DNA of 64,000 nt. Source: Aquibacillus rhizosphaerae. GTDB lineage: Bacteria; Bacillota; Bacilli; Bacillales; Amphibacillaceae. Where the stretch lies: NCBI RefSeq assembly GCF_030282825.1, contig NZ_JASTZU010000024.1, forward strand, positions 1 to 64,000, written 5' to 3'. The stretch's first letter is position 1, and each line of letters starts with the position of its first letter. The translations under genes were made by a program, and so were the position numbers. The notes under the pieces were generated by a model, which saw nothing but the letters and a program-made list of their open reading frames with translations, was not told where the DNA came from and made no database searches. Positions 3,095 through 28,566 of the stretch are shown piece by piece.

Positions 3095-4123
3095 TTAACG
3101 TTGTACTAACCTGTCAGTGACTTTTAATTCATCTAACGATTTAACACCTATGGCAAACATGGCCATTTGTAATTCTAATTCTTTAGTGGCCATTACTTCT
3201 AACATCTGGTCAACAGATTCGGTTGCTGCTTGCAAGACAGAGCGACCAAAACCGACCATATCTGCACCAAGGGCGATAGCTTTTGCTCCATCGACACCGG
3301 TTTTTATTCCACCACTAGCTATGACGGTTTGGTTTCCAATTTGTTTGCGAACGGATGTAATACATTCAACAGTAGGAATGCCCCATTCGCTAAATGCTTC
3401 AGCAGCCTGTTTCTTGATTGGTTCTTTGGAACGATACTTTTCAACTTGGCTCCATGAGGTACCGCCAGCACCAGCAACGTCAATAAAAGATACACCTACA
3501 TCACATAGTTTTTTAGCAACTGTTCCATCAATACCCCAGCCAACTTCTTTAACTCCGACGGGAACATCTAGTTCTCGGCAAAGTTTTTCAATTTTAATAA
3601 GTAAGTCTTTAAAATTCGTATCTCCACCTTGTTGAATAACCTCTTGGATACTGTTTAAGTGAAGCACTAATGCATCTGCTTCTGTAATTTCAATGATCTT
3701 TTGACATTTCTCTAAATCAAAACCGTAGTTAAGCTGGACAGCTCCTAGATTAGCTATAATTGGAACACTTGGTGCATATTCTCTTACTTGAAACGAAGAA
3801 CGGTATTTTTCGTTTTCGATTAATGCACGAGTAGATCCTAATCCAATGGCCCATCCTTTTTCTTCGGAAGCCTCAGCAATATTGCGATTAATCGTCTCTG
3901 CTAATGCTGCACCACCAGTCATGGAACTTACCAAAAATGGGGTCTTATAACGTTTACCTAAAAAGTCGCTTGATAAATCAATTTCATTAAAATCAATTTC
4001 AGGCAATGCATTATGTATGAATTTAAACGATTCAAAGCCTGTTGAGGTGTTTAGACCAGTAACCGTTTCGTTTAATACAATGTCGATATGTTGTGATTTT
4101 CGTTTATCAATTGAATCAACCAT
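3095..4123 (-). CDS. fni: Type 2 isopentenyl-diphosphate delta-isomerase
   Basis: This FMN- and NADPH-dependent enzyme interconverts IPP and DMAPP in the cytosol and is unrelated to the type 1 enzyme. At 342 residues it is full length. It shows the N-terminal RKSQHIDI, the SSMTGG loop, GLGSTRALIE and the C-terminal phosphate-binding stretch GGIKTGVDGAKAIALGAD typical of the family. AAGGAG precedes the ATG. It is the last gene of the leftward operon, 109 nt after mvaK2. That gap holds an imperfect hairpin near 4145-4168, so a separate promoter is possible. The enzyme needs no Fe-S cluster. Confidence 0.93.
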   Translation of the reverse strand: MVDSIDKRKSQHIDIVLNETVTGLNTSTGFESFKFIHNALPEIDFNEIDLSSDFLGKRYKTPFLVSSMTGGAALAETINRNIAEASEEKGWAIGLGSTRALIENEKYRSSFQVREYAPSVPIIANLGAVQLNYGFDLEKCQKIIEITEADALVLHLNSIQEVIQQGGDTNFKDLLIKIEKLCRELDVPVGVKEVGWGIDGTVAKKLCDVGVSFIDVAGAGGTSWSQVEKYRSKEPIKKQAAEAFSEWGIPTVECITSVRKQIGNQTVIASGGIKTGVDGAKAIALGADMVGFGRSVLQAATESVDQMLEVMATKELELQMAMFAIGVKSLDELKVTDRLVQR

Positions 4124-4232
4124 AAAAAAACTCCTTAATAAAATCTATCATCCTATATATGATGGATAGAACAAAATAGTATGCTTCATCTTATTTTACA
4201 TTAAACTACATCAATCAACAATTGGATTATTG

Positions 4233-5336
4233 CTAAACCAGAGATGCTCCTTTTTCAGAAACACTTAAATCTAATGGTGAAATATTAGATGACTTCCATT
4301 CAGAATGTAATGCTTGCTTTTTATTTTCTCCTGCAACGAATGCAATTCCACAATCACCGCCACCAGCACCGGAAGACTTACCACTTCCATATCTCTCTGC
4401 TATGATTACTAAGTTAGTTAACATGGGGGTTTCGATTGTCCCATTTGCATGATTACTTAACTGGAGTAGTGCTTGACGATTTTTCTTTAGGCTATTAATA
4501 GCGGTTAAACAATCCACTTGTTCAAAGGCGTTGACGAGGCCAGCAACTGCAGTCGAACTTTCCTGCAAAAATTGTGCATATAGGCTTGGATTCAAGTCAC
4601 GTAATGCTTGGATTTTGTTAATCATTGGCGCTGTTGCAGCTTCAGACCCTGTCCATCCTACACAAAGCTCTAGAAGAGGAGGGGGAGTGATTTTATCAAT
4701 GACTAGCTTAGGCCAAGTTTTTTTTACTAATTCACTAATGGCAACACCTTGCTCAAGTTGCTTTTCTATCCAATCTGGCTGAAAACTAGAGTAACGAATC
4801 CAGCCTCCAAAAGTGGAAGCTGCAATATCTGCCCCAGAGCCACTACCCTGTGTCTTGAAATGAGCAATTGCTGCCAATTTAAAAATTAAGTCAGGAGAAA
4901 GCTTGATAGTTTCTTGCTTATAATAATTTAGCATGGCAGTTACAATGCCAACGACTATGGCAGCACTTGATCCTAAACCATATTTTCGTCCTGAAACTTC
5001 ATCATCTAATTCACTTGATACGGTCAAGTGAATAGGTTTCAACGCAATTAAATTTTCATGTAAAAAATCATCAACTAAACTAATCGTGTTCTGAATAAAC
5101 CGCAAACGTTTATCAAAAACATTATAGTGTGCCTTGTTACCAGATCCTGTCCAAGAAACTTTTTCTAGGGAAAGTTGAGGTAGGGAAAGTTGATTTTTGT
5201 TACTTGTTTCAATTGTAAATGTAATATAACGGTTAATAGCTATTACGATAGCCTCTTGTCCTGGCTCAAGTACAGCGTATTCTCCAGCAATAAATAGTTT
5301 TCCGGGTACTTTCACTTTATAGTTAGAATTGGGCAA
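4233..5336 (-). CDS. mvaK2: Phosphomevalonate kinase
   Basis: This GHMP-superfamily kinase makes mevalonate 5-diphosphate from phosphomevalonate and ATP. At 367 residues it matches the firmicute enzyme. It shows the N-terminal KVPGKLFIAGEYAVL, the GHMP phosphate loop YGLGSSAAIVVG (about residue 118) and the C-terminal SGAGGGDCGIAF loop. The TTG start lies 15 nt after the mvaD stop, with AAAGGGGTG overlapping that stop, so the two genes are translationally linked. Confidence 0.93.
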   Translation of the reverse strand: MPNSNYKVKVPGKLFIAGEYAVLEPGQEAIVIAINRYITFTIETSNKNQLSLPQLSLEKVSWTGSGNKAHYNVFDKRLRFIQNTISLVDDFLHENLIALKPIHLTVSSELDDEVSGRKYGLGSSAAIVVGIVTAMLNYYKQETIKLSPDLIFKLAAIAHFKTQGSGSGADIAASTFGGWIRYSSFQPDWIEKQLEQGVAISELVKKTWPKLVIDKITPPPLLELCVGWTGSEAATAPMINKIQALRDLNPSLYAQFLQESSTAVAGLVNAFEQVDCLTAINSLKKNRQALLQLSNHANGTIETPMLTNLVIIAERYGSGKSSGAGGGDCGIAFVAGENKKQALHSEWKSSNISPLDLSVSEKGASLV

Positions 5337-5351
5337 TTCTGTTTCACCCCT

Positions 5352-6410
5352 TTACGTGTGACTAGTCTTGTTTTCACAATTACTTTGATGGTATGTTTTA
5401 TAGAATAGCTTACTTCCATTTTCGGTAGCAGTATCAGGCAGGTAGCTAATACCCGGTCCTGGATGACAAAGATAGACATTTTGCACTGACGGTAAAGTGG
5501 CCAGGTGTTCAAGGACTGCTTGTTCATCTTTTTGGTGGCAAATCACTTTCACATTTGGACCTGCATCAATCGTGAAATAAGCCTCAATACCTGATGTGCG
5601 TAGTTGTTGTACATGTTCCATAACTTCAAGGGTAGCACTTTGCCAATACATAAAAGGAGGATTAGCACCTAAGGTTGTAGCATGCATTTTTAATGCGTTA
5701 GCTTCAACAACCGTACCGAGCATCTCGAAATCACGTTCAGCGATTGCTCTTTTTGCTTGAACTAGATCTTTTTCTACTGTATCCAGCCAACCTTTATAAA
5801 ATGGAGACGTTTCAACGGTTCGCTTCATTCCTTCTCGACTAAGTACTTTCTTTTCGTTTGAGGCAACTAGACAAGAGAGAACGCTTAGGTTCCAGTCTTG
5901 TTTATCACTAATTGGCTTAGCAAAGGAATCCGAGCCATCGACTTCCTCCCCTTTTTGCCATTCTACATAACCACCGTAGATTGATCTACAGGCTGAACCA
6001 GAACCTTGGCGAGCAATTTGAGATAGTGTCTTATTATCGGTATCCATACCAATTGCCTTAGTTGCAGCTGCTGCGAGCGCTGCAAAACCGGAGGCAGAAG
6101 ATGCAAAACCTGCTGCTGTTGGTACTTTATTAACCGAGTTTACAATGGCATACATATTTTTGCCAGCGATATTTCTTACGTGATCTAAAAAAGCAACAAT
6201 CTTCATTGTTTCAGCCTCACTTGCAATTTGCCCATTTAACAAAAATACATCCTTATTTAAACAGGAACAAAACTGAACAGCCGTTGTTGTATAAAATCGA
6301 TCTAACGTGATGGAAAGGCTACTATTCATTGGTAAAAATAATGTTTCGTCGCGCTTTCCCCAATATTTAATAAGTGCAATATTCGTATGTGCTTTAGCAA
6401 TGGCCTCCAC
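5352..6410 (-). CDS. mvaD: Mevalonate diphosphate decarboxylase
   Basis: This enzyme performs the ATP-dependent decarboxylation of mevalonate diphosphate to IPP. It has 352 residues. Family marks include AKAHTNIALIKYWGKRDE at the N-terminus, the AAGFASSASGFAALAAA phosphate loop, QGSGSACRSIYGG and the catalytic Asp in TIDAGPNVK. The GTG start follows AGGAGGAA. It lies 37 nt after mvaK1 and 15 nt before mvaK2 in the same unit. Confidence 0.94.
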   Translation of the reverse strand: MEAIAKAHTNIALIKYWGKRDETLFLPMNSSLSITLDRFYTTTAVQFCSCLNKDVFLLNGQIASEAETMKIVAFLDHVRNIAGKNMYAIVNSVNKVPTAAGFASSASGFAALAAAATKAIGMDTDNKTLSQIARQGSGSACRSIYGGYVEWQKGEEVDGSDSFAKPISDKQDWNLSVLSCLVASNEKKVLSREGMKRTVETSPFYKGWLDTVEKDLVQAKRAIAERDFEMLGTVVEANALKMHATTLGANPPFMYWQSATLEVMEHVQQLRTSGIEAYFTIDAGPNVKVICHQKDEQAVLEHLATLPSVQNVYLCHPGPGISYLPDTATENGSKLFYKTYHQSNCENKTSHT

Positions 6411-6447
6411 GTAAATTCCTCCTAATAGTTAACGACAGCGAAGTTGA

Positions 6448-7395
6448 TTATTCTGTTAATGTAAAATACCATGTTTTTCGCGCGTTCGCTTTTTCTAAAG
6501 CAATGGCAATTGATTTTGCTTCGTTCATGTTATGTGCAAGGGCCACGATACAACCACCGCGGCCACCACCCGTAAGCTTCGCTCCAATAGCACCAGCGTC
6601 TCGAGCTACGTTTACTAACTGATTTAAGCCTTGATCACTAACACCCAATGTAGTAAGTTTATCTTGGGCCGCATTTAGTAAGTTCCCTAATAACTTCACG
6701 TTTCCATGTGCCAATGCAACACGTGCTTGTTCACTTATTTCTCCAAGCTGGTCAATCGAATGTTGTGTATCTATAGGGTTAATTGTAGATTTATTCTTGA
6801 TAGATGCAACTGCTGCATGGGTATCACCTACGCGTCCAGTATCAGCTACAACTAAATAGAAGGGTCGTCCTATCTGTACAGATTCAATTTGATGACCCTT
6901 TTGAAACCATATTGGCTGATCACTAGAAGCGGCAGCAGTGTCAATACCACTTGGATTACCATGCGCATAGGTTTCAGCAAGATGAGCAAGCTCTAATAAT
7001 TCTCCCTTTGATAGTTTCCTACCATAATAAGCATACAAACTTCTTACTACTGCAATTGCGACCGCAGCACTAGAACCTAGTCCCCGACCTAGTGGTATGG
7101 TGGATTCTAACTTTATAATTAAACCCTCCGCAGGCTTTTCCAAATATTTTAGTGTTTCTTTTATACAAGCAGCAATGCCATGCATTTTTTCCGGTAAGTC
7201 TGGAAGTGGTCCGACGTAATACATGGAATCAATGATTAGCGTATCATTTAAAACCGACTGAACACTCGCTTTTACTTCAACAAGTGGAAGGGGAAGGGCA
7301 ATTGCTGGTTTACCATAAACAACAGAATGTTCGCCAACTAAAATTAGCTTACCATGTGAGCTACCGACTACTGTGTTTTTAGAAAGATTAATCAT
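6448..7395 (-). CDS. mvaK1: Mevalonate kinase
   Basis: This GHMP kinase phosphorylates mevalonate to 5-phosphomevalonate and starts the lower mevalonate pathway. It has 315 residues. It shows HGKLILVGEHSVVYGKPAIA, the LGRGLGSSAAVAIA loop, ETYAHGNPSGIDTA with the catalytic Asp, and LTGGGRGGCIVAL. GTGAGG lies upstream of the ATG. Only 47 nt separate it from the TctA-type permease gene, with no terminator between, so one transcript from the 9.13-kb promoter is likely. Confidence 0.94.
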   Translation of the reverse strand: MINLSKNTVVGSSHGKLILVGEHSVVYGKPAIALPLPLVEVKASVQSVLNDTLIIDSMYYVGPLPDLPEKMHGIAACIKETLKYLEKPAEGLIIKLESTIPLGRGLGSSAAVAIAVVRSLYAYYGRKLSKGELLELAHLAETYAHGNPSGIDTAAASSDQPIWFQKGHQIESVQIGRPFYLVVADTGRVGDTHAAVASIKNKSTINPIDTQHSIDQLGEISEQARVALAHGNVKLLGNLLNAAQDKLTTLGVSDQGLNQLVNVARDAGAIGAKLTGGGRGGCIVALAHNMNEAKSIAIALEKANARKTWYFTLTE

Positions 7396-7442
7396 TAGGA
7401 TACCTCACTTCTGGCCTTACAGGAATTCAATCGAACCTCTAC

Positions 7443-8798
7443 TTAGCCTACTAATTTAGAAATAATCCATGGAGCTGAATACAGAATCATGAACTGCACA
7501 CCATAGTTGATTCCCCAGCGGTGCAGAACTCCCGCCACCATACCAATTAAAAGCACGCCACCTATATTTATCCATCCCGCATCCATAAATGCAAGCAATA
7601 AGACTAAAGCAAAAAACAAACCTAACATTGCTTCATGTGGAATTCTTGTGAAAATAAACGCGCATATCTGATTGGAAAACTTAACAATTATAAAATAAGT
7701 AATTACTATTGCAACAATCGCACCTATCAATGTTGCCCAAATAAAATCTGCATTGGAAAGAACATGGTGCATATTATGTTCTAATGTAAACACAGGTGGC
7801 GCGTTAAATAAAGCATTGGCTGGACCAATGGCCATTGGTGATAATGGAATACCTAATGCAATTAAAGGAATCAACGTTCCTGAAATATAAGCAGCATTTG
7901 TTAACCCATCCATGGATGAGATAGCACGTGACGCTTTTTTGACAGGGTCTTTGATTCTGCTAGTAAATAATTCCCCCAAGAATATCGTGATTCCTACAGG
8001 GCTCATAATAAAAGTAAGTGATCCGATTAAAGAAGTAAAGGAACTGGACAATAATTCCTTTCCTGTTAAAATTTTAAAAGGATTTGGGATTCCTTTATAG
8101 CGATTCTTTTTATTGTATGTAATATCTTTTTTACCAAAACGTTGTAGAGAATTTCTTTTGTCTTTGTTTAACAGTTCAAATAAAGTTAAAATCACTGGTC
8201 CGATTGTTATACCCAAGAAAAAGGAGATGAAAACATTTGTCCCTTCAGGTACTACTCCAACACCCCAGTATAAATGTCTTAGTCCTTGAATTAATAAGGC
8301 AAAAGGAATAATCGAAGCAAGGGCAAGTATCTTATTCTTCGTCATTAGTGCTAAAAAAACGGCACCAAAGAAAAACAACGGATTAGCATAGTCTTTGATT
8401 ACATCAGAAACAGGGATCAGAGCATTGGCTAGAATTAAGCTAACAGGAACAGCAACGGTAGTACCAATAACGGAACCAGAAGCCATTTTGCGAATACTTA
8501 AGTCAGTTAGTCCATGCTTTTTCAGCACGAGTGCATGTTCGACCATCGGCGTTGACATCACACCACCTGGAATTCCTGCTACAGCAACTGGAACAGAATC
8601 GGTTAATTTTTTTGCAACAATCGCAGAAATGAAAAACGACAAAATAATGATTGGTTCCATTCCAGTTAAAACGAGTACTAAGGTAACCGGTGCTAATACG
8701 GCCGTTTCATCTGTACCTGGAGCTATTCCTATAATTGAATAAATGACTGCAGCTAAAACAGCAGCCATAATCATTTGCATAATTAATACTGCATCCAT
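7443..8798 (-). CDS. Tripartite tricarboxylate transporter permease (TctA family)
   Basis: This 451-residue, very hydrophobic protein has about 10-12 membrane segments. TctA features are IGIAPGTDETAVLAPV near residue 25, the VAGIPGGVMSTPMVEHALVLKKHG stretch around residues 73-96 and a second GIPLSPMAIGPANALF motif around 316-331. Known TctA proteins import carboxylates with a small TctB and a binding protein TctC. No TctC gene is in the window. It starts 2 nt after the 85-residue gene and precedes the mevalonate genes. The substrate is unknown; mevalonate or citrate are possibilities suggested by context. Confidence 0.8.
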   Translation of the reverse strand: MDAVLIMQMIMAAVLAAVIYSIIGIAPGTDETAVLAPVTLVLVLTGMEPIIILSFFISAIVAKKLTDSVPVAVAGIPGGVMSTPMVEHALVLKKHGLTDLSIRKMASGSVIGTTVAVPVSLILANALIPVSDVIKDYANPLFFFGAVFLALMTKNKILALASIIPFALLIQGLRHLYWGVGVVPEGTNVFISFFLGITIGPVILTLFELLNKDKRNSLQRFGKKDITYNKKNRYKGIPNPFKILTGKELLSSSFTSLIGSLTFIMSPVGITIFLGELFTSRIKDPVKKASRAISSMDGLTNAAYISGTLIPLIALGIPLSPMAIGPANALFNAPPVFTLEHNMHHVLSNADFIWATLIGAIVAIVITYFIIVKFSNQICAFIFTRIPHEAMLGLFFALVLLLAFMDAGWINIGGVLLIGMVAGVLHRWGINYGVQFMILYSAPWIISKLVG

Positions 8799-8800
8799 CT

Positions 8801-9058
8801 TTATTCCTCACTTTCCGCTTCACGCATTGATCTTTTTGGTTTAATAAAATAACTACAAATTCCAAAGCCGATGAGAGCTCCTATTAATCCATAGAACAAT
8901 GGTTGAGGCGGCTCGTTTGGGGCGATAAAATAAGCTGTCAAAGTAGTAAAACTACAAATGAATAAAGATAAAACTAAATCTTTTATATTAACAAGATCTT
9001 CCCAAACCTCGATATTATTCTTTGATTGTTCGTCCTCAGAATGATTTGTTTTTGTCAA
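8801..9058 (-). CDS. Small two-TM protein, probable TctB-like partner
   Basis: This 85-residue protein has two membrane segments (about residues 26-46 and 52-70), an acidic N-terminus and a KPKRSMREAESEE tail. It is about half the length of classical TctB proteins, but its position directly before the TctA gene suggests the same partner role. The TTG start has AAAGGAG 12 nt upstream, a long spacing. It is the first gene after the promoter at 9127-9155. Confidence 0.6.
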   Translation of the reverse strand: MTKTNHSEDEQSKNNIEVWEDLVNIKDLVLSLFICSFTTLTAYFIAPNEPPQPLFYGLIGALIGFGICSYFIKPKRSMREAESEE

Positions 9059-9126: not shown

Positions 9127-9155
9127 ATTATAATGATAACGATTCTCAACATCAA
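9127..9155 (-). promoter_or_regulatory. Promoter of the transporter-mevalonate operon
   Basis: On the minus strand TTGATG (9155-9150), a 17-bp spacer and a perfect TATAAT (9132-9127) form a strong SigA promoter about 70 nt before the first gene. The spacer is almost entirely occupied by a Fur-like box. Confidence 0.7.
9134..9148 (-). promoter_or_regulatory. Fur-box-like operator
   Basis: TGAGAATCGTTATCA matches 12 of the 14 fixed bases of the 7-1-7 Fur box TGATAATNATTATCA. It lies between the -35 and -10 elements, a classic place for repression when iron is plentiful. PerR or Zur boxes are related in sequence and cannot be excluded. Confidence 0.6.
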
Positions 9156-9176: not shown

Positions 9177-9192
9177 TGTGATTATTATCACA
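9177..9192. promoter_or_regulatory. FNR/CRP-family site TGTGA-N6-TCACA
   Basis: An exact 5-6-5 palindrome lies centred about 64 bp upstream of the expected leftward transcription start, close to a class I activator position, and about 175 bp before the rightward GGDEF-EAL gene. In Bacillus this motif is recognised by Fnr and its relatives. Which gene it serves is unclear. Confidence 0.45.
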
Positions 9193-22486: not shown

Positions 22487-22715
22487 ATAGTCTGGCTAGG
22501 ACGATGCTTCTGTTCCCTTTGTTCCATAAATTATATGAAGAAAGGCTCTGCAGACACAGAAGGGACACATAAATGTCATCTGAAATTCACAACTTATTAA
22601 ACAGTTTAGTTTAAAATGTGAAAGGGTAACTGTTAATATTAAAAACATGTTAAAATGAAAATTAGTATGTGTATTGTTTCACTAAATCTTAACAATGTAC
22701 AAGGAGGGTATAAAA

Positions 22716-24068
22716 ATGGAGTTTGATACAGTCACTATTAGTAGATTAATCACAGCAATGACCTTAACCTTTCATATCATCTTTGCTACATTGGGTGTTG
22801 GTGTGCCATTATTTATTTCATTGGCTGAGTTTATTGGAATTAAAAAGAAAGACAAGCATTATGAATTACTTGCTAAGCGGTGGGCGAGAGGTTTTGTTAT
22901 AACAGTGGCCATTGGTGTCGTAACTGGTACGGCAATTGGCTTACAGTTATCTTTAGTTTGGCCTAACTTTATGCAAATGGCTGGTAATGTGATTGCCTTG
23001 CCACTATTTATGGAAGTTTTTGCATTTTTCTTTGAAGCTATTTTCTTAGGGATTTATTTATATACATGGGACCGTTTTAAAGGTAAATATACACACTGGC
23101 TCATATCCTTACCAGTTGTTATTGGGGCAGGTATGTCTGCTGTTTTTATTACTACAGTGAATTCGTTTATGAATTCACCTGATGGATTTACGATAACAAA
23201 CGGTGAATTTGTCGCGGTTAATCCGATAGAAGCAATGCTAAATCCATCGTCACCAACTAGAATTGCGCACGTATTAGGTGGATCGTATCTAACGGTGGCA
23301 GCCATTTTAGCAACGATTGCAGCCATTGCATTATTACGTAAGAAAGGCGCTGCGGATTATCATAAAAAAGCGTTAAAAATGACAGTTATATCGATGCTTG
23401 TTTTCTCTATTTTAACTGCGGTTGCAGGAGATACATCAGCAAAATATCTTGCAGAACATCAGACGGAAAAGTTAGCTGCAGCGGAATGGCTTTTTGAAAC
23501 TGAAGAGAATGCCGATTTAATTCTTTTTGGCTGGCTAAATGAAAATAACGAGGTAGTTGGTGAACTCCGAATACCTGGTTTTCTAAGCTTTTTAGCTCAT
23601 GGAGATTTTATGAGTGAAGTAACTGGTTTGGAAGTAACACCGGAAGATGAGCGACCACCTTTAGTTATTCACTATTTATTTGATTTGATGGTGTCGATTG
23701 GCTTTTTCTTGATTGGTATTTCTTTCTTATATCTTGTATTAAGTAAATTTAAACGCTGGAATGTTCATAATAAGTTCATGCTATGGATGCTTGCTTTAAG
23801 TGGTCCACTAGCCATGTTAGCGGTCGAGTTTGGTTGGATATTTGCAGAACTCGGAAGACAACCTTGGATCGTAAGAGGATATATGACTGTAAGTGAAGCT
23901 GCGACGTCTTCTCCATATATCTTGCATATGTTTTTCTTGTTTTTAGCTTTGTATATTGTACTTGGAACATTATTTGTGATTACGTTAAGAAAATTGTTTA
24001 AAGATAATCCAGTTGAACTAGAATTAGAGAAACACTACCCTGAACTAGAAAAGGGGGATAAAAAATGA
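22716..24068 (+). CDS. cydA: Cytochrome bd oxidase subunit I (YthA/CIO-like type)
   Basis: This 450-residue membrane subunit of bd-type quinol oxidase carries the hemes and oxidises quinol while reducing oxygen to water. Nine or so membrane segments are visible. Features are LTFHIIFATLGVGVPL near the N-terminus, GTAIGLQLSLVWPNF and VEFGWIFAELGRQPW, with a short Q-loop. The sequence looks closer to the YthA/cyanide-insensitive branch than to classical CydA, which has GTxxEFQFG. The ATG at 22716 follows AAGGAGGG; the ATG at 22695 lies upstream of that site. It is first of cydABCD, overlapping cydB by 4 nt. Confidence 0.9.
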   Translation: MEFDTVTISRLITAMTLTFHIIFATLGVGVPLFISLAEFIGIKKKDKHYELLAKRWARGFVITVAIGVVTGTAIGLQLSLVWPNFMQMAGNVIALPLFMEVFAFFFEAIFLGIYLYTWDRFKGKYTHWLISLPVVIGAGMSAVFITTVNSFMNSPDGFTITNGEFVAVNPIEAMLNPSSPTRIAHVLGGSYLTVAAILATIAAIALLRKKGAADYHKKALKMTVISMLVFSILTAVAGDTSAKYLAEHQTEKLAAAEWLFETEENADLILFGWLNENNEVVGELRIPGFLSFLAHGDFMSEVTGLEVTPEDERPPLVIHYLFDLMVSIGFFLIGISFLYLVLSKFKRWNVHNKFMLWMLALSGPLAMLAVEFGWIFAELGRQPWIVRGYMTVSEAATSSPYILHMFFLFLALYIVLGTLFVITLRKLFKDNPVELELEKHYPELEKGDKK

Positions 24069-25078
24069 GTTATGAAATAGTAGGAATCACAGTATTATGG
24101 CTATTTTTGTATGGCTATGTTATCGTTGCTTCGATTGATTTCGGGGCAGGGTTTTTCGCTTATTATGCAAAAGTTACCAAAAGAGATCACATCATAAATC
24201 AAATTATTTCTAGATATCTATCCCCTGTATGGGAAGTGACCAATGTATTTTTAGTGTTCTTTTTTGTTGGAATTGTTGGTTTCTTTCCATCAACAGCTTA
24301 TTACTATGGATCCGCTTTACTTGTACCGGCAAGCTTTGCAATCATTTTGTTAGCGATCCGGGGATCCTTTTATGCGTTTGAAAATTACGGATCTAAACAG
24401 AGTAATGTCTATATGTTTCTGTACGGCGCAACAGGGTTATTAATCCCTGCGTCACTTTCTGTCGCATTAACTGTTTCAGAAGGTGGATTTATTAAGGAAG
24501 AGAATGGTGTAGTATCACTGAAATATTTAGAATTATTCACAAGTCCATTAGCTTGGAGTATCGTTGGATTGGCAATTACTGCGATTTTATTCATTAGTGC
24601 AAGCTTTTTAACTTACTATGCGTCAAGAGCCAATGATAAACCTGCTCTAAATTTAGTAAGGAGATGGTCGCTTTTTTGGGCGACACCCACGATTATTATG
24701 GCACTCACAACGATGATATTTTTGGGTCAGCACAATCAACGTCATTTTGATAATATGTTGGATTTATGGTGGGTATTCGGCTTATCGATGGGCTTCTTTT
24801 TAATTGCCATGGGGCTGTTATACATCGGTAGAAATTATGGAACAGCGTTTATCGCTATCATGCTCCAATTTTTCTTTGCATTTTTTGGATACGGTGCTGC
24901 ACAATATCCATATTTACTTGACCCATATATTCACATTGAATCTAGCGTTACGAATGAATCCATGGGACTCGCCTTAATCATCGTCTTTATTGGAGGATTA
25001 CTCATGTTAATTCCTTCCCTGATATTACTGATGCGTTTGTTTTTATTTAATGCAGATTATGCTAAAGGGAAAAAGTAG
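24065..25078 (+). CDS. cydB: Cytochrome bd oxidase subunit II
   Basis: This 337-residue partner subunit of the bd oxidase has about eight membrane segments and begins LWLFLYGYVIVASIDFGAGFF, the usual CydB N-terminus. SRYLSPVWEVTNVFLVFFFVG and RGSFYAFENYG are further family stretches. Its ATG overlaps the cydA stop (ATGA), which implies coupled translation. The cydD gene starts 39 nt later. Confidence 0.9.
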   Translation: MSYEIVGITVLWLFLYGYVIVASIDFGAGFFAYYAKVTKRDHIINQIISRYLSPVWEVTNVFLVFFFVGIVGFFPSTAYYYGSALLVPASFAIILLAIRGSFYAFENYGSKQSNVYMFLYGATGLLIPASLSVALTVSEGGFIKEENGVVSLKYLELFTSPLAWSIVGLAITAILFISASFLTYYASRANDKPALNLVRRWSLFWATPTIIMALTTMIFLGQHNQRHFDNMLDLWWVFGLSMGFFLIAMGLLYIGRNYGTAFIAIMLQFFFAFFGYGAAQYPYLLDPYIHIESSVTNESMGLALIIVFIGGLLMLIPSLILLMRLFLFNADYAKGKK

Positions 25079-25117
25079 ATTGTGGACGAAAATTTGTAGT
25101 AGAGGAATGAGATCTTC

Positions 25118-26851
25118 ATGCAAAATATAAAGAAAACAGTATGGAGGCATAAAAGAAGAATCTACTTTTTAGTAGGTCTAACTTTACTGCTCGGTCTGGC
25201 AATTATTGTACAGGCCTTCCTTATGACACGTATTGTAGATGGTGTCTTTTTGAAAAACTTATCCTTTTCAGCAGTTACATCACCAATCCTCGCATTGTTT
25301 ATTATTTTGTTGATTCGCGCTTTAACCGATTATATGAGTAAACGAATAGGTGTTTCTATTGCGAGTGATGTTAAACGTGATGTTCGTAAAGATTTATTAA
25401 CTAAATATGCGCAGCAGCCTGTTCAGCTCGCAGAAAAAGGACAAACAGGTAAAAAGGTAAGTATGCTTCTAGATGGTGTTGATGAAATGGATAGTTTCTA
25501 TAGCCAGTTTATCCCACAAGTAATGCAAAGTACGTTTGTACCGTTGTTAGTGATGATTGTTATTTTCACTCAACATATAAATTCAGGCATTATATTGCTT
25601 GTTTCTGCTCCATTTATTCCGATTTTTATGATTGTTATCGGAATACAAACCCAGAAAAAGTCAGAAGAAAAGCTAGAAAAACTAGCTTCTTTTTCTGGTG
25701 CTTTTTTAGACACATTACAAGGACTCGTAACATTAAAATTATTTGGAAGAACAAAAAAGCAAAAAGACGAATTAGAACAAAGTAGTTTAGGCTTTCGTGA
25801 TACAACGATGGATATTTTGAAGGTTGCTTTTACCCAATCGTTTGCACTTGAACTCATATCGATGATTAGTATTGGAATTGTCGCGTTAGAGCTTGCGATT
25901 CAGTTAATTATCTACGAAAGTATTTCGTTTTTTACAGCTTTCGTCATTCTTATTTTGGTTCCAGAATTTTTTACTTCTTTAAAAGAACTCGGTACTACCT
26001 TTCATAATGGTAGAAGTAGTATGGGAGCGGCTAAAAAAGTGTTACAGGAGTTTGATGAACAAGACGATTCGATTCAATGGGGAAAGAATGAAATGGCTCA
26101 AGAAGAAGTTCCACCAACCATCCAGTTAAACCATCTTAGCTTTACCTATCCAACGAGTGATTTTAAGTTACACAATATGGATGCTACTTTTTTACCAAAG
26201 CAAAAAATTGCCATTGTTGGTGCGAGTGGTTCAGGAAAAACAACGCTACTTCATTTGTTAGCAGGGATGATCACGCCCGATGAAGGAGCTATTAACGTGC
26301 AGCAACAAGACCTTGTTACCTTTACAGAAGCGTCATGGTTGAATCAGCTTTCCTATATTTCGCAACATCCTTATATTTTTTCTGGGACGATTGGTGAAAA
26401 CATTGCCATGGGAACAACGGCTGCTGTTGATGAAAAAGCCATTAGAGAGGCTGCAGAAAAAGCTGGAATCGCTCCGCTAATTGAATCATTAGAAAACCAA
26501 TATCAAACGAAAATAGGTGAAGCGGGACGAGGTTTATCCAGTGGTGAAAAACAACGTGTTTCCATTGCGCGCGCCTTCTTGAAAAAACCAACGATTGTTT
26601 TGCTTGATGAACCTACCCGTGGCCTGGATCTTGCTACAGAGAAAATATTGCAACAATCGATTGAGCAGCTAAACGAGACAGCAACTGTGATAACAGTGGC
26701 ACATCGATTGCATACGATTAAAACTGCAGATCAGATTCTATTTTTGGAGAATGGTCAGTTGCAAGCAGTTGGTACACATTCAACATTATTTGATACTTTA
26801 CCAGCATATCGGGAAATGGTAACGATTCAACGAGGGGGTAAACAAGCATGA
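25118..26851 (+). CDS. cydD: Thiol exporter CydDC, CydD subunit
   Basis: This 577-residue ABC half-transporter has six membrane segments (1-310) and a nucleotide-binding domain. In known systems CydDC exports cysteine/glutathione or handles heme and is needed for bd oxidase assembly. The ATPase parts are complete: Walker A GASGSGKTT, signature LSSGEKQRVSIARA, Walker B TIVLLDEPT and the H-loop VAHRLH. The ATP-binding half ends directly at the cydC overlap (ATGA). Confidence 0.88.
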   Translation: MQNIKKTVWRHKRRIYFLVGLTLLLGLAIIVQAFLMTRIVDGVFLKNLSFSAVTSPILALFIILLIRALTDYMSKRIGVSIASDVKRDVRKDLLTKYAQQPVQLAEKGQTGKKVSMLLDGVDEMDSFYSQFIPQVMQSTFVPLLVMIVIFTQHINSGIILLVSAPFIPIFMIVIGIQTQKKSEEKLEKLASFSGAFLDTLQGLVTLKLFGRTKKQKDELEQSSLGFRDTTMDILKVAFTQSFALELISMISIGIVALELAIQLIIYESISFFTAFVILILVPEFFTSLKELGTTFHNGRSSMGAAKKVLQEFDEQDDSIQWGKNEMAQEEVPPTIQLNHLSFTYPTSDFKLHNMDATFLPKQKIAIVGASGSGKTTLLHLLAGMITPDEGAINVQQQDLVTFTEASWLNQLSYISQHPYIFSGTIGENIAMGTTAAVDEKAIREAAEKAGIAPLIESLENQYQTKIGEAGRGLSSGEKQRVSIARAFLKKPTIVLLDEPTRGLDLATEKILQQSIEQLNETATVITVAHRLHTIKTADQILFLENGQLQAVGTHSTLFDTLPAYREMVTIQRGGKQA

Positions 26852-28566
26852 GCGCGCTTCAAAAGGTAATCAAACTTATGCTGATTGAAAAAAAGGATAT
26901 CGTTATAGCCATTTGTTTAGGCTTTATCGCTGGAATTAGTAGTGTTGGTTTGTTTGCTGCTAGTGGATACCTTATTTCAAAAGCAGCTTTAATACCTCCT
27001 TTTTATGCATTGATTGTGTTAACTTCAACGGTGAAATTACTCGGTTTTGTTAAAGCTGGTGCCAAATATGGGGAGCGTCTTTATTCACACCGTGCAACGT
27101 TTACAATTTTAAGCAATTTACGTGTAACGTTTTTTGAAAAATTGGAACCACTCGTTCCACATGTTTTTCATAAGTATCGAAGTGGTGACTTGCTTGGTCG
27201 TGTCGTTGGTGATGTAGAAAGTTTACAAAACTTCTTTCTACGTGTTTTTTATCCACCAATCGTCTTATTACTTGTTTTTGTGAGTACGATTTTCTTCGTC
27301 AGTTTCTATTCGTTGGCGATTGCAGTGATTTTGTTACTCGGTTTTTTACTAACGACAATTGTAATTCCAGCCCTGTTTTCTTTAAGACAAGTAAAAATTA
27401 ATGGAAGAGTAAGACAGGAACGCGGGGACCTATCGACAGAAATTACTGAAGTGATGTACGGATTTCGTGATTTGAAGTTGTTTCAACAATTAGATACGAA
27501 ACAAAATCAGCTTTTAAGCCAATCAGAAACCTACATTAATGAACAAAAACAAGAAAACATTAATAAAGTGTATAGTCAATCGTTTAACGGATTCATTACG
27601 TTTATTGTCAGTTGGTTCGTGTTAGCTATAGGTGCTTATTTGGTTGTAAATGGAACGTTAGAAGGAATCTTTTTAGCGATGCTTGTGATGATTTCATTAA
27701 CTGTCTTCGAACCAGCAGCACCAATGGCAGTCTTTCCAATTTATATCCAGGAAAGTCGTGATGCGTCAAACCGGTTATATGACGTCGTAGACGAACCGGA
27801 TATTCAACCGAGCGAAACCAATATTTCTATCAATCATTTACCTGACGTTCCACCAGGACTTGCATTTAGCGACATCCGTTTTACCTACAAAGGGGAGTGG
27901 CGGACAACGATTCCTAACCTTTCGCTTCTGTTACCGGCCGGATCAAAAACGGCAATTGTAGGAGCTAGTGGATCAGGTAAATCAACCTTGCTACAGCTTA
28001 TTTTAAAAATGCAACAAGTAGAAGCTGGACAAGTTTATTGGGATCAACACGACACCTTGACTGTGTCTGGGTCCGCAATCTGGGAACAAACTAAAGTGGT
28101 TTTACAGGAAAATCATTTCTTCTATGGCACTATCCGAGACAACTTGCTACTTGCAGATCCTGGACTACAGGATGACCAAATGAATGCAGTACTTGCAAGC
28201 GTGCAACTTGAGAATTTTTCACTGGATACGCGTGTTTCAGAAAATGGAGAAAATCTGTCTGGTGGTGAGAAGCAACGATTAGCGATTGCAAGAGCCTTGT
28301 TGAAAAAAGGTCATCTTTGGCTGTTAGATGAGCCGACATCATCGCTAGATGCACAAACGGAACAAAGTATTTATCAACAAATCTTCAACCAAGCAGATCA
28401 AGATACATTACTTTTGGTCAGTCACCGCTTGCAGGGCTTAGAACAGATGGATCAGATTATTGTCATGAATCACGGTGAAATCATCGAATCAGGTTCCTAT
28501 CAAGAACTGATGGAATTAGAGGGATACTTCTACCAAATGAAAACACTGGAAGAAAGTCTGCTTTAA
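26848..28566 (+). CDS. cydC: Thiol exporter CydDC, CydC subunit
   Basis: This 572-residue second half of the heterodimeric CydDC ABC transporter has six membrane segments with FAASGYLISKAAL in TM1. Its complete ATPase has GASGSGKST, LSGGEKQRLAIARA, LWLLDEPTSSLD and VSHRLQ. Overlap with cydD by 4 nt and a strong terminator right after the stop mark it as the last gene of the cydABCD operon. Confidence 0.88.
   Translation: MSALQKVIKLMLIEKKDIVIAICLGFIAGISSVGLFAASGYLISKAALIPPFYALIVLTSTVKLLGFVKAGAKYGERLYSHRATFTILSNLRVTFFEKLEPLVPHVFHKYRSGDLLGRVVGDVESLQNFFLRVFYPPIVLLLVFVSTIFFVSFYSLAIAVILLLGFLLTTIVIPALFSLRQVKINGRVRQERGDLSTEITEVMYGFRDLKLFQQLDTKQNQLLSQSETYINEQKQENINKVYSQSFNGFITFIVSWFVLAIGAYLVVNGTLEGIFLAMLVMISLTVFEPAAPMAVFPIYIQESRDASNRLYDVVDEPDIQPSETNISINHLPDVPPGLAFSDIRFTYKGEWRTTIPNLSLLLPAGSKTAIVGASGSGKSTLLQLILKMQQVEAGQVYWDQHDTLTVSGSAIWEQTKVVLQENHFFYGTIRDNLLLADPGLQDDQMNAVLASVQLENFSLDTRVSENGENLSGGEKQRLAIARALLKKGHLWLLDEPTSSLDAQTEQSIYQQIFNQADQDTLLLVSHRLQGLEQMDQIIVMNHGEIIESGSYQELMELEGYFYQMKTLEESLL

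Follow-up and report, generated by a model that had tools for sequence, protein, structure and literature searches.

Several described systems come close to the locus analyzed here. In the laboratory, Escherichia coli without ispG was sustained by external mevalonate and the lower mevalonate pathway, and growth on 0.5 mM mevalonate was obtained with the lower-pathway genes and no importer named (PMC8896826), indicating that an importer is not strictly needed when the mevalonate supply is high. The operon described below would likewise substitute external mevalonate and the lower pathway for an Fe-S-dependent MEP enzyme, but it is natural and is equipped with its own permease and Fur box. Iron-sparing responses, such as the replacement of ferredoxin by flavodoxin, are a second relative; the likeness would lie in an iron-free substitute under Fur-type control, and the difference in a substrate that would be scavenged externally and in the exchange of an entire sub-pathway. 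Listeria carries a mevalonate pathway together with a partial MEP pathway (PMC13001223) and so combines genes of both pathways within one Bacillota genome, as is the case here; IPP comes from the mevalonate pathway in Listeria, whereas in the present genome the MEP pathway is complete and the upper half of the mevalonate pathway is missing. No report linking mevalonate salvage to Fur or iron was found in the open-access literature searched, and no mevalonate transporter is mentioned in the relevant sections of a paper on exogenous mevalonate.

The window, a stretch of 64,000 nucleotides of the Aquibacillus rhizosphaerae genome (contig NZ_JASTZU010000024.1), carries six genes of interest on the minus strand. 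They run from a gene for an 85-amino-acid protein with two predicted membrane stretches (8801..9058) through a TctA-family permease that is the proposed mevalonate importer (7443..8798), mevalonate kinase (6448..7395), diphosphomevalonate decarboxylase (5352..6410) and phosphomevalonate kinase (4233..5336) to a type 2, FMN-dependent IPP isomerase (3095..4123). The coordinates, the gene order and the spacing of 2 to 109 nt on one strand, as given in an earlier note made by reading the DNA, were all reproduced (gaps of 2, 47, 37, 15, and 109 nt in the direction of transcription), although co-transcription across the 109 nt gap in front of the isomerase gene is not shown. The four enzymes exceed the cut-offs of their NCBIfam equivalog models: mevalonate kinase (TIGR00549, 272.9 bits against 163.05), the decarboxylase (TIGR01240, 359.1 against 171.35), phosphomevalonate kinase (TIGR01220, 326.5 against 165.7) and the isomerase (TIGR02151, 412.5 against 281.3). 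By these cut-offs both kinases and the decarboxylase, the three enzymes of the lower mevalonate pathway, are encoded. No terminator-like site was found in the gap between the permease and mevalonate kinase genes, which folds like shuffled sequence (z = 0.03), and no Rfam family reaches its gathering score anywhere in the window.

The permease belongs to the TctA family (PF01970, 95.8 bits against a curated cut-off of 28.9). Its structure model is good (mean pLDDT 86.9) but uninformative on the substrate, since neither Foldseek (E up to 0.001) nor phmmer (E up to 1) found a match in the PDB. The tripartite tricarboxylate transporters TctABC likewise pair a permease of the TctA family with a small membrane protein. 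They differ from the present system in that no match to TctC (PF03401) was found in the whole genome and the 85-amino-acid partner, which adjoins the permease in relatives too, has no match to TctB up to E = 1 and reaches the cut-off of no Pfam family; a classical TctABC system was therefore rejected. TctC was found in 8 out of 16 genomes searched, including two that carry the permease-mevalonate gene module (G012 and G017), on contigs other than that of the module.

The earlier note had also stated that HMG-CoA synthase (HMGS) and HMG-CoA reductase (HMGR) are absent from the operon and the window, which held and can be extended to the whole genome: neither enzyme (mvaS, mvaA) was matched anywhere in an assembly that is listed as 100% complete, although the same searches were positive for HMGR in 18 and for HMGS, over cut-off, in 16 of 41 genomes. 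The complete mevalonate pathway was thus rejected for this genome, and any mevalonate used must be of external origin. The genome encodes a complete MEP pathway (Dxs, Dxr, IspD, IspE, IspF, IspG, and IspH). The statement that most Bacillaceae make IPP by the MEP route needs correction, since 17 of the 25 genomes sampled from the organism's own family contain HMGR and 8 contain IspG, which makes MEP the minority route in this sample.

The neighborhoods of related permeases were compared across 80 loci. Genes for mevalonate kinase and the decarboxylase adjoin the permease in 37 of them (module-type loci), and this repetition argues that the pairing is not due to chance. HMGR adjoins the same permease subfamily and small partner in another 16 loci (HMGR-type). 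These share the permease subfamily and partner with the module but have a catabolic partner and no Fur box at two mismatches (16/16), and HMG-CoA lyase exceeds its cut-off in all 15 searchable HMGR-type genomes versus none of five module genomes; they are read as loci of mevalonate catabolism. A further 21 loci are hydrolase-type, with an esterase that has a lipobox-like N-terminus (three examples, judged by eye) and a metallo-beta-lactamase-fold hydrolase as partner; hydrolysis of mevalonolactone or mevalonate esters is a possible, untested role. Few alignment columns (seven at the threshold used) separate the permeases of the three types. Six plasmid records, from Roseomonas, Burkholderia, Lichenicola, and Rhizobium, gave matches at <60% identity. 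Mevalonate is the only metabolite common to the kinase and reductase neighbors and is therefore the likely substrate of the permease, an inference from common partners without uptake data.

The co-occurrence of the TctA gene with mvaK1 that the earlier note had asked about was upheld: among 41 relatives, 23 of which have IspG, the permease and an over-cut-off mevalonate kinase occur in the same 4 IspG-positive genomes and neither occurs in the other 19. None of the observations that would have refuted its proposal of external mevalonate uptake was made (mvaS and mvaA elsewhere under the same control together with a TctC encoded nearby, or a transcription stop before mvaK1). Together with the co-occurrence of permease and kinase and with HMGR as the other partner of the permease, this supports uptake as the best reading, with transport itself unproven.

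A likely purpose of the uptake is given by a feature that the earlier note had missed. Upstream of the operon on the minus strand, a promoter-like element (TTGATG-17-TATAAT, 9127..9155) holds within its spacer a Fur-box-like site (TGAGAATCGTTATCA, 9134..9148) that differs by two mismatches from the Fur consensus, and a Crp/Fnr-type site (TGTGATAATAATCACA, 9177..9192) of unknown role, present in some related loci as well, matches its consensus perfectly. A lone box-like site is weak evidence because the genome contains 160 such sites at ≤2 mismatches versus 103 for a reversed control. Across the relatives, a Fur box with ≤2 mismatches was found in 23 of 31 module loci from genomes with IspG and without HMGR, as against 14 among 934 upstream regions used as controls; it was found in none of the six module loci from HMGR-encoding genomes, none of the 16 HMGR-type loci and none of the 21 hydrolase-type loci. 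Four of the 31 loci lack a box even at three mismatches and four more have one only at that threshold. A -10-like element lies inside or just 3' of the box in 24 out of 28 cases. The conserved Fur box on the promoter is thus shown at the level of sequence, without binding data, and the contrast with genomes that make their own mevalonate depends on just three independent changes, for which a sign test on the tree is not significant. Within the A. rhizosphaerae genome, 10 genes near sites with 0-1 mismatches were scanned; 4 of them encode a siderophore-type binding-protein domain and one a FecCD domain.

The best explanation of these data, which is favored but by no means secure, is an iron-controlled bypass of isoprenoid synthesis by imported mevalonate. 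When iron is sufficient, Fur would occupy the promoter and IPP and DMAPP would come from the MEP pathway, which ends with the [4Fe-4S] enzymes IspG and IspH. When iron is short, Fur would dissociate and release expression of the importer and the lower pathway; mevalonate shed by other organisms would enter through the TctA-family permease with its small partner and be converted to IPP by mevalonate kinase, phosphomevalonate kinase and the decarboxylase, and the FMN isomerase would supply DMAPP. None of these enzymes uses iron, and the pathway could stand in for IspG and IspH. The genomic side of this explanation is strong: the genes, the lack of matches to HMGS, HMGR, and TctC, the complete MEP pathway and the conserved Fur box are shown, and genes and operator fit an iron-sparing response. 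The substrate, the direction of transport, Fur binding, induction at low iron and a benefit to the cell are inferred, and mevalonate levels in the habitat are unknown.

Among the alternatives, salvage could be real but under Fur control for another reason, with mevalonate or anhydromevalonate arising as a by-product of fungal siderophore use or with low iron marking a niche rich in mevalonate makers. The Fur boxes of the IspG-positive, HMGR-free module loci fit this, and some fungal siderophores contain anhydromevalonyl groups. Against it, the module has neither a hydrolase nor an uptake gene for siderophores, the loci that do bear an esterase form the separate hydrolase type, all 21 boxless at two mismatches, and anhydromevalonate is not known to be a substrate of mevalonate kinase; this alternative is considered unlikely. 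Similarly improbable is that the box is read by another member of the Fur family or answers another signal, e.g., peroxide through PerR, in which case the module would bypass IspG and IspH more generally, under oxidative stress or in connection with oxygen. In its favor are the notorious oxygen sensitivity of both enzymes (PMC13001223), the Crp/Fnr-like site in some loci and, in the A. rhizosphaerae genome, a one-mismatch pair of boxes flanked by the genes for an ABC ATPase and a catalase. However, PerR boxes have T at position 2 and A at position 14, whereas the 23 boxes have G at position 2 in 22 cases and C at position 14 in 20, and iron-uptake genes are among the neighbors of the sites with 0-1 mismatches.

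Much less plausible is that the permease transports a different carboxylate, which might be a ferric one, and that its position next to mevalonate kinase is incidental. Known substrates of the TctA family are of the citrate type, and uptake of a ferric carboxylate would suit a Fur box, but this leaves unexplained the recurrent partners (kinase and decarboxylase in 37/80 loci, HMGR in 16/80) and the lack of Fur boxes in the HMGR-type loci, and the kinase in IspG-positive genomes without HMGR would have no supply of mevalonate. An ordinary mevalonate pathway with its upper half at a distant location can be all but excluded. Such an arrangement exists in 6 of the 37 module genomes, which have HMGR elsewhere, and likewise in G017 and G009, but for the genome analyzed here it is refuted for the known HMGR and HMGS families by searches that succeed in other genomes, and it could survive only through an enzyme not yet known.

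A bolder form of the iron-controlled bypass, to which the evidence also inclines without settling it, holds that a natural iron-sparing switch is widespread in Bacilli and Clostridia, in which Fur would, on iron starvation, release a new class of mevalonate importer together with the lower pathway, mevalonate leaked by neighbors would replace the use of IspG and IspH, and the importer family would have been re-used for mevalonate catabolism. The pressures behind the diversity of isoprenoid pathways were called yet undetermined in a 2026 review (PMC13001223); if the bypass is real, iron would be a concrete selective pressure for keeping genes of both pathways together. It would also name a bacterial family of mevalonate importers and provide a candidate for supplying mevalonate to production strains. 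For bacteria of this kind, the requirement for MEP enzymes would then hinge on iron and on the mevalonate of their neighbors, and under the bolder reading mevalonate would be a traded nutrient in iron-poor habitats.

The operon is encoded on the window's minus strand and begins with a gene for an 85-aa protein with two transmembrane segments (9058-8801), followed by the TctA-family permease (8798-7443), mevalonate kinase (7395-6448), diphosphomevalonate decarboxylase (6410-5352), phosphomevalonate kinase (5336-4233) and type 2 IPP isomerase (4123-3095), with intergenic gaps of 2, 47, 37, 15 and 109 nt. The gene order and the gaps of 2 to 109 nt on one strand described in an earlier note therefore held. 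A transcription stop between the permease and mevalonate kinase (mvaK1), which would have counted against that note's reading, was not found: a scan of this gap gave no terminator-like site and its folding is no stronger than that of shuffled sequences. The isomerase might share the transcript of the upstream genes, which is left undecided because the last gap measures 109 nt. A squalene/phytoene synthase-like gene (678-1493) is convergent to the operon, and a relative of it lies downstream of the isomerase on the same strand in Aquibacillus halophilus (L038). Elsewhere in the window, positions 22695-28566 encode cytochrome bd oxidase subunits I and II and then two ABC transporter genes, which we take to be a cydABCD-like cluster.

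The Aquibacillus rhizosphaerae genome (G000, completeness listed as 100%) contains the MEP genes Dxs, Dxr, IspD, IspE, IspF, IspG and IspH, and whole-genome searches gave no match for HMG-CoA synthase (mvaS), HMG-CoA reductase (HMGR, mvaA) or TctC. The earlier note had proposed the searches for mvaS, mvaA and the MEP genes, and its refuting case, mvaS and mvaA elsewhere under the same control together with a nearby TctC, does not apply; TctC, though absent here, is present elsewhere in two other genomes with the module of permease pair and lower-pathway genes (G012 and G017). The note's remark that most Bacillaceae use the MEP route differs from the sample of the organism's own family (25 genomes, G000-G024), where the reductase is found in 17 and IspG in 8, with exactly one of the two in each of the 25 genomes. 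Across 41 genomes chosen independently of the permease, 23 contain IspG. Mevalonate kinase exceeds the cut-off in four of these (G000, G003, G012 and G037), and the permease is present in the same four and absent from the remaining 19, a coincidence with a chance of 1 in 8,855 if relatedness is ignored. The suggested co-occurrence of the TctA gene with mvaK1 held here and in 37 of 80 permease loci. The module is not bound to the MEP pathway alone, since G017 and G009 carry it with reductase and synthase and without IspG. The genome and locus samples overlap (e.g., G012 is L042, G017 is L049 and G003 is L061).

The permease loci were obtained by scanning an alignment of 11 permeases against named genomes and keeping the best 80 of 182 relatives, and neighbor genes were identified by similarity to proteins of the window and of the relatives. 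Mevalonate kinase and decarboxylase adjoin the permease in the 37 module-type loci (Bacillaceae, Filibacter, Clostridium and others), HMGR in 16 and a metallo-beta-lactamase-fold hydrolase, sometimes together with an esterase, in 21; six are unclassed, including two whose contigs end close to the permease. Mevalonate is the only metabolite common to the kinase and the reductase and is therefore the likely substrate, which supports the earlier reading of uptake and use of external mevalonate, although the main argument is pathway inference without a transport result. The one HMGR of the reductase type that was scanned (G002, L027) scores above the threshold for the degradative model TIGR00532. 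HMG-CoA lyase exceeds the cut-off in all 15 reductase-type genomes searched (the 16th, L116, was left out; one match contains an internal stop), in none of five module genomes and in 3 of 14 controls. Because of this lyase, the reductase-type loci probably represent mevalonate catabolism, despite a decarboxylase over the cut-off in 6 of the 15 genomes. The lyase is also over the cut-off in L102; in this locus and L111, both from genomes with IspG and without HMGR, the permease is not beside lower-pathway genes and a decarboxylase over the cut-off is encoded elsewhere. In L064 (10480-12845) and 20 similar loci the permease lies beside the hydrolase, and some of these loci add a lipoprotein-like esterase; mevalonate could conceivably be released there from a lactone or esters. 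When the permease tree is rooted with four distant relatives, the module-type loci are basal and the other two types nested within, but this is a quick tree that carries a long-branch warning.

A Fur-box-like site, TGAGAATCGTTATCA (9148-9134, minus strand), lies upstream of the operon inside the spacer of a promoter TTGATG-17-TATAAT, two mismatches from the generally known Fur consensus used for matching. Alone it is weak evidence, because the genome contains 160 such sites at up to two mismatches versus 103 for a reversed control. Conservation makes the case for the box, inferred from sequence alone and without binding data, a strong one. Of the 80 genomes that contain these loci, 50 were searched for IspG and HMGR (37 module, 7 of the 16 reductase-type and 6 others; completeness not given). 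Among the 37 module genomes, 31 carry IspG without HMGR, two carry both and four HMGR without IspG. The approximately 330 nt preceding the operon contain a box with no more than two mismatches in 23 of the 31 IspG-positive, HMGR-negative module loci versus 14 of 934 control regions (Fisher test 3e-30), and in 0/6 HMGR-positive module, 0/16 reductase-type, 0/21 hydrolase-type and 1/6 other loci. At up to three mismatches the counts are 27/31 versus 68/934, and 0/6, 1/16, 2/21 and 2/6, respectively. Against the six HMGR-positive module loci the Fisher values are 0.0013 (two mismatches) and 9e-5 (three); no correction for relatedness was applied to any of these tests. The 1.42 Mb of locus DNA contains four perfect boxes, each within a module promoter. 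In the 27 loci taken together with G000, 24 of the 28 boxes contain a -10-like element (at most one mismatch) or are closely followed by one, versus 31% of control windows. In G037, where the permease is at the cluster end, a two-mismatch box lies 264 nt before the kinase match.

Several observations weigh against the iron link. Four of the 31 loci have a box only at three mismatches and a further four (L057, L058, L091 and L108) none even then. Reductase status switches three times among the module loci on the permease tree, and a sign test of box against status is not significant, because about two of the three independent contrasts go in the expected direction and one shows no difference. 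Gene absences are less certain in L046, which comes from a metagenome-assembled genome.

A perfect Crp/Fnr-type palindrome, matched to the generally known consensus, lies upstream of the Fur box (9192-9177, minus strand). Such sites, with at most one mismatch, occur in 5 of 33 IspG-positive, HMGR-negative promoters (G000 and G037 included) versus 16 of 934 controls, and in 4 of 6 HMGR-positive module promoters; they are seen in Aquibacillus, Amphibacillus and Paraliobacillus. The three Paraliobacillus loci, like that of Aquibacillus sediminis, have this site and no Fur box, as if iron control may have been added on top of an older control.

Elsewhere in the A. rhizosphaerae genome, ten genes near nine of the 15 loci chosen for Fur-like sites with zero or one mismatch were scanned. 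A siderophore-type binding-protein domain is present in four of them, in one case fused to an AraC regulator, and a fifth encodes a FecCD permease; the other five comprise a short-chain dehydrogenase, a flavin oxidoreductase, an ABC ATPase, a catalase and a gene with no family assignment. Overlapping Fur-like boxes lie between the ABC ATPase and catalase genes (L128 1501-1521, G000:C37:97879-97899).

Under the proposed mechanism, iron shortage would release Fur from the operon promoter, the permease pair would bring mevalonate into the cell, the kinases and decarboxylase would convert it to IPP at the expense of ATP, and the FMN isomerase would supply DMAPP. An isomerase of its own would be useful to such a bypass, since the decarboxylase yields IPP only; it is in the locus in 15/31 IspG-positive, HMGR-negative cases, 1/2 with both and 0/4 with the reductase alone. 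External mevalonate and the lower half of the pathway sustain E. coli without ispG (PMC8896826), and an inserted mevalonate pathway is stated, citing others, to let E. coli and B. subtilis bypass the two Fe-S proteins (PMC8264796).

The component families are already known, and mevalonate import as such is not new, since import systems have been stated for several bacterial species (2025, PMC12405511). The module combined with Fur control was not found in the open-licence literature searched. A 2026 review reports that about 4% of Clostridium species carry genes of both pathways, terms the selective pressures yet-undetermined and mentions neither mevalonate import nor Fur in its relevant sections (PMC13001223). 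With import, Fur binding and induction all inferred, the operon is likely to be an iron-sparing system whose importer family is newly proposed.
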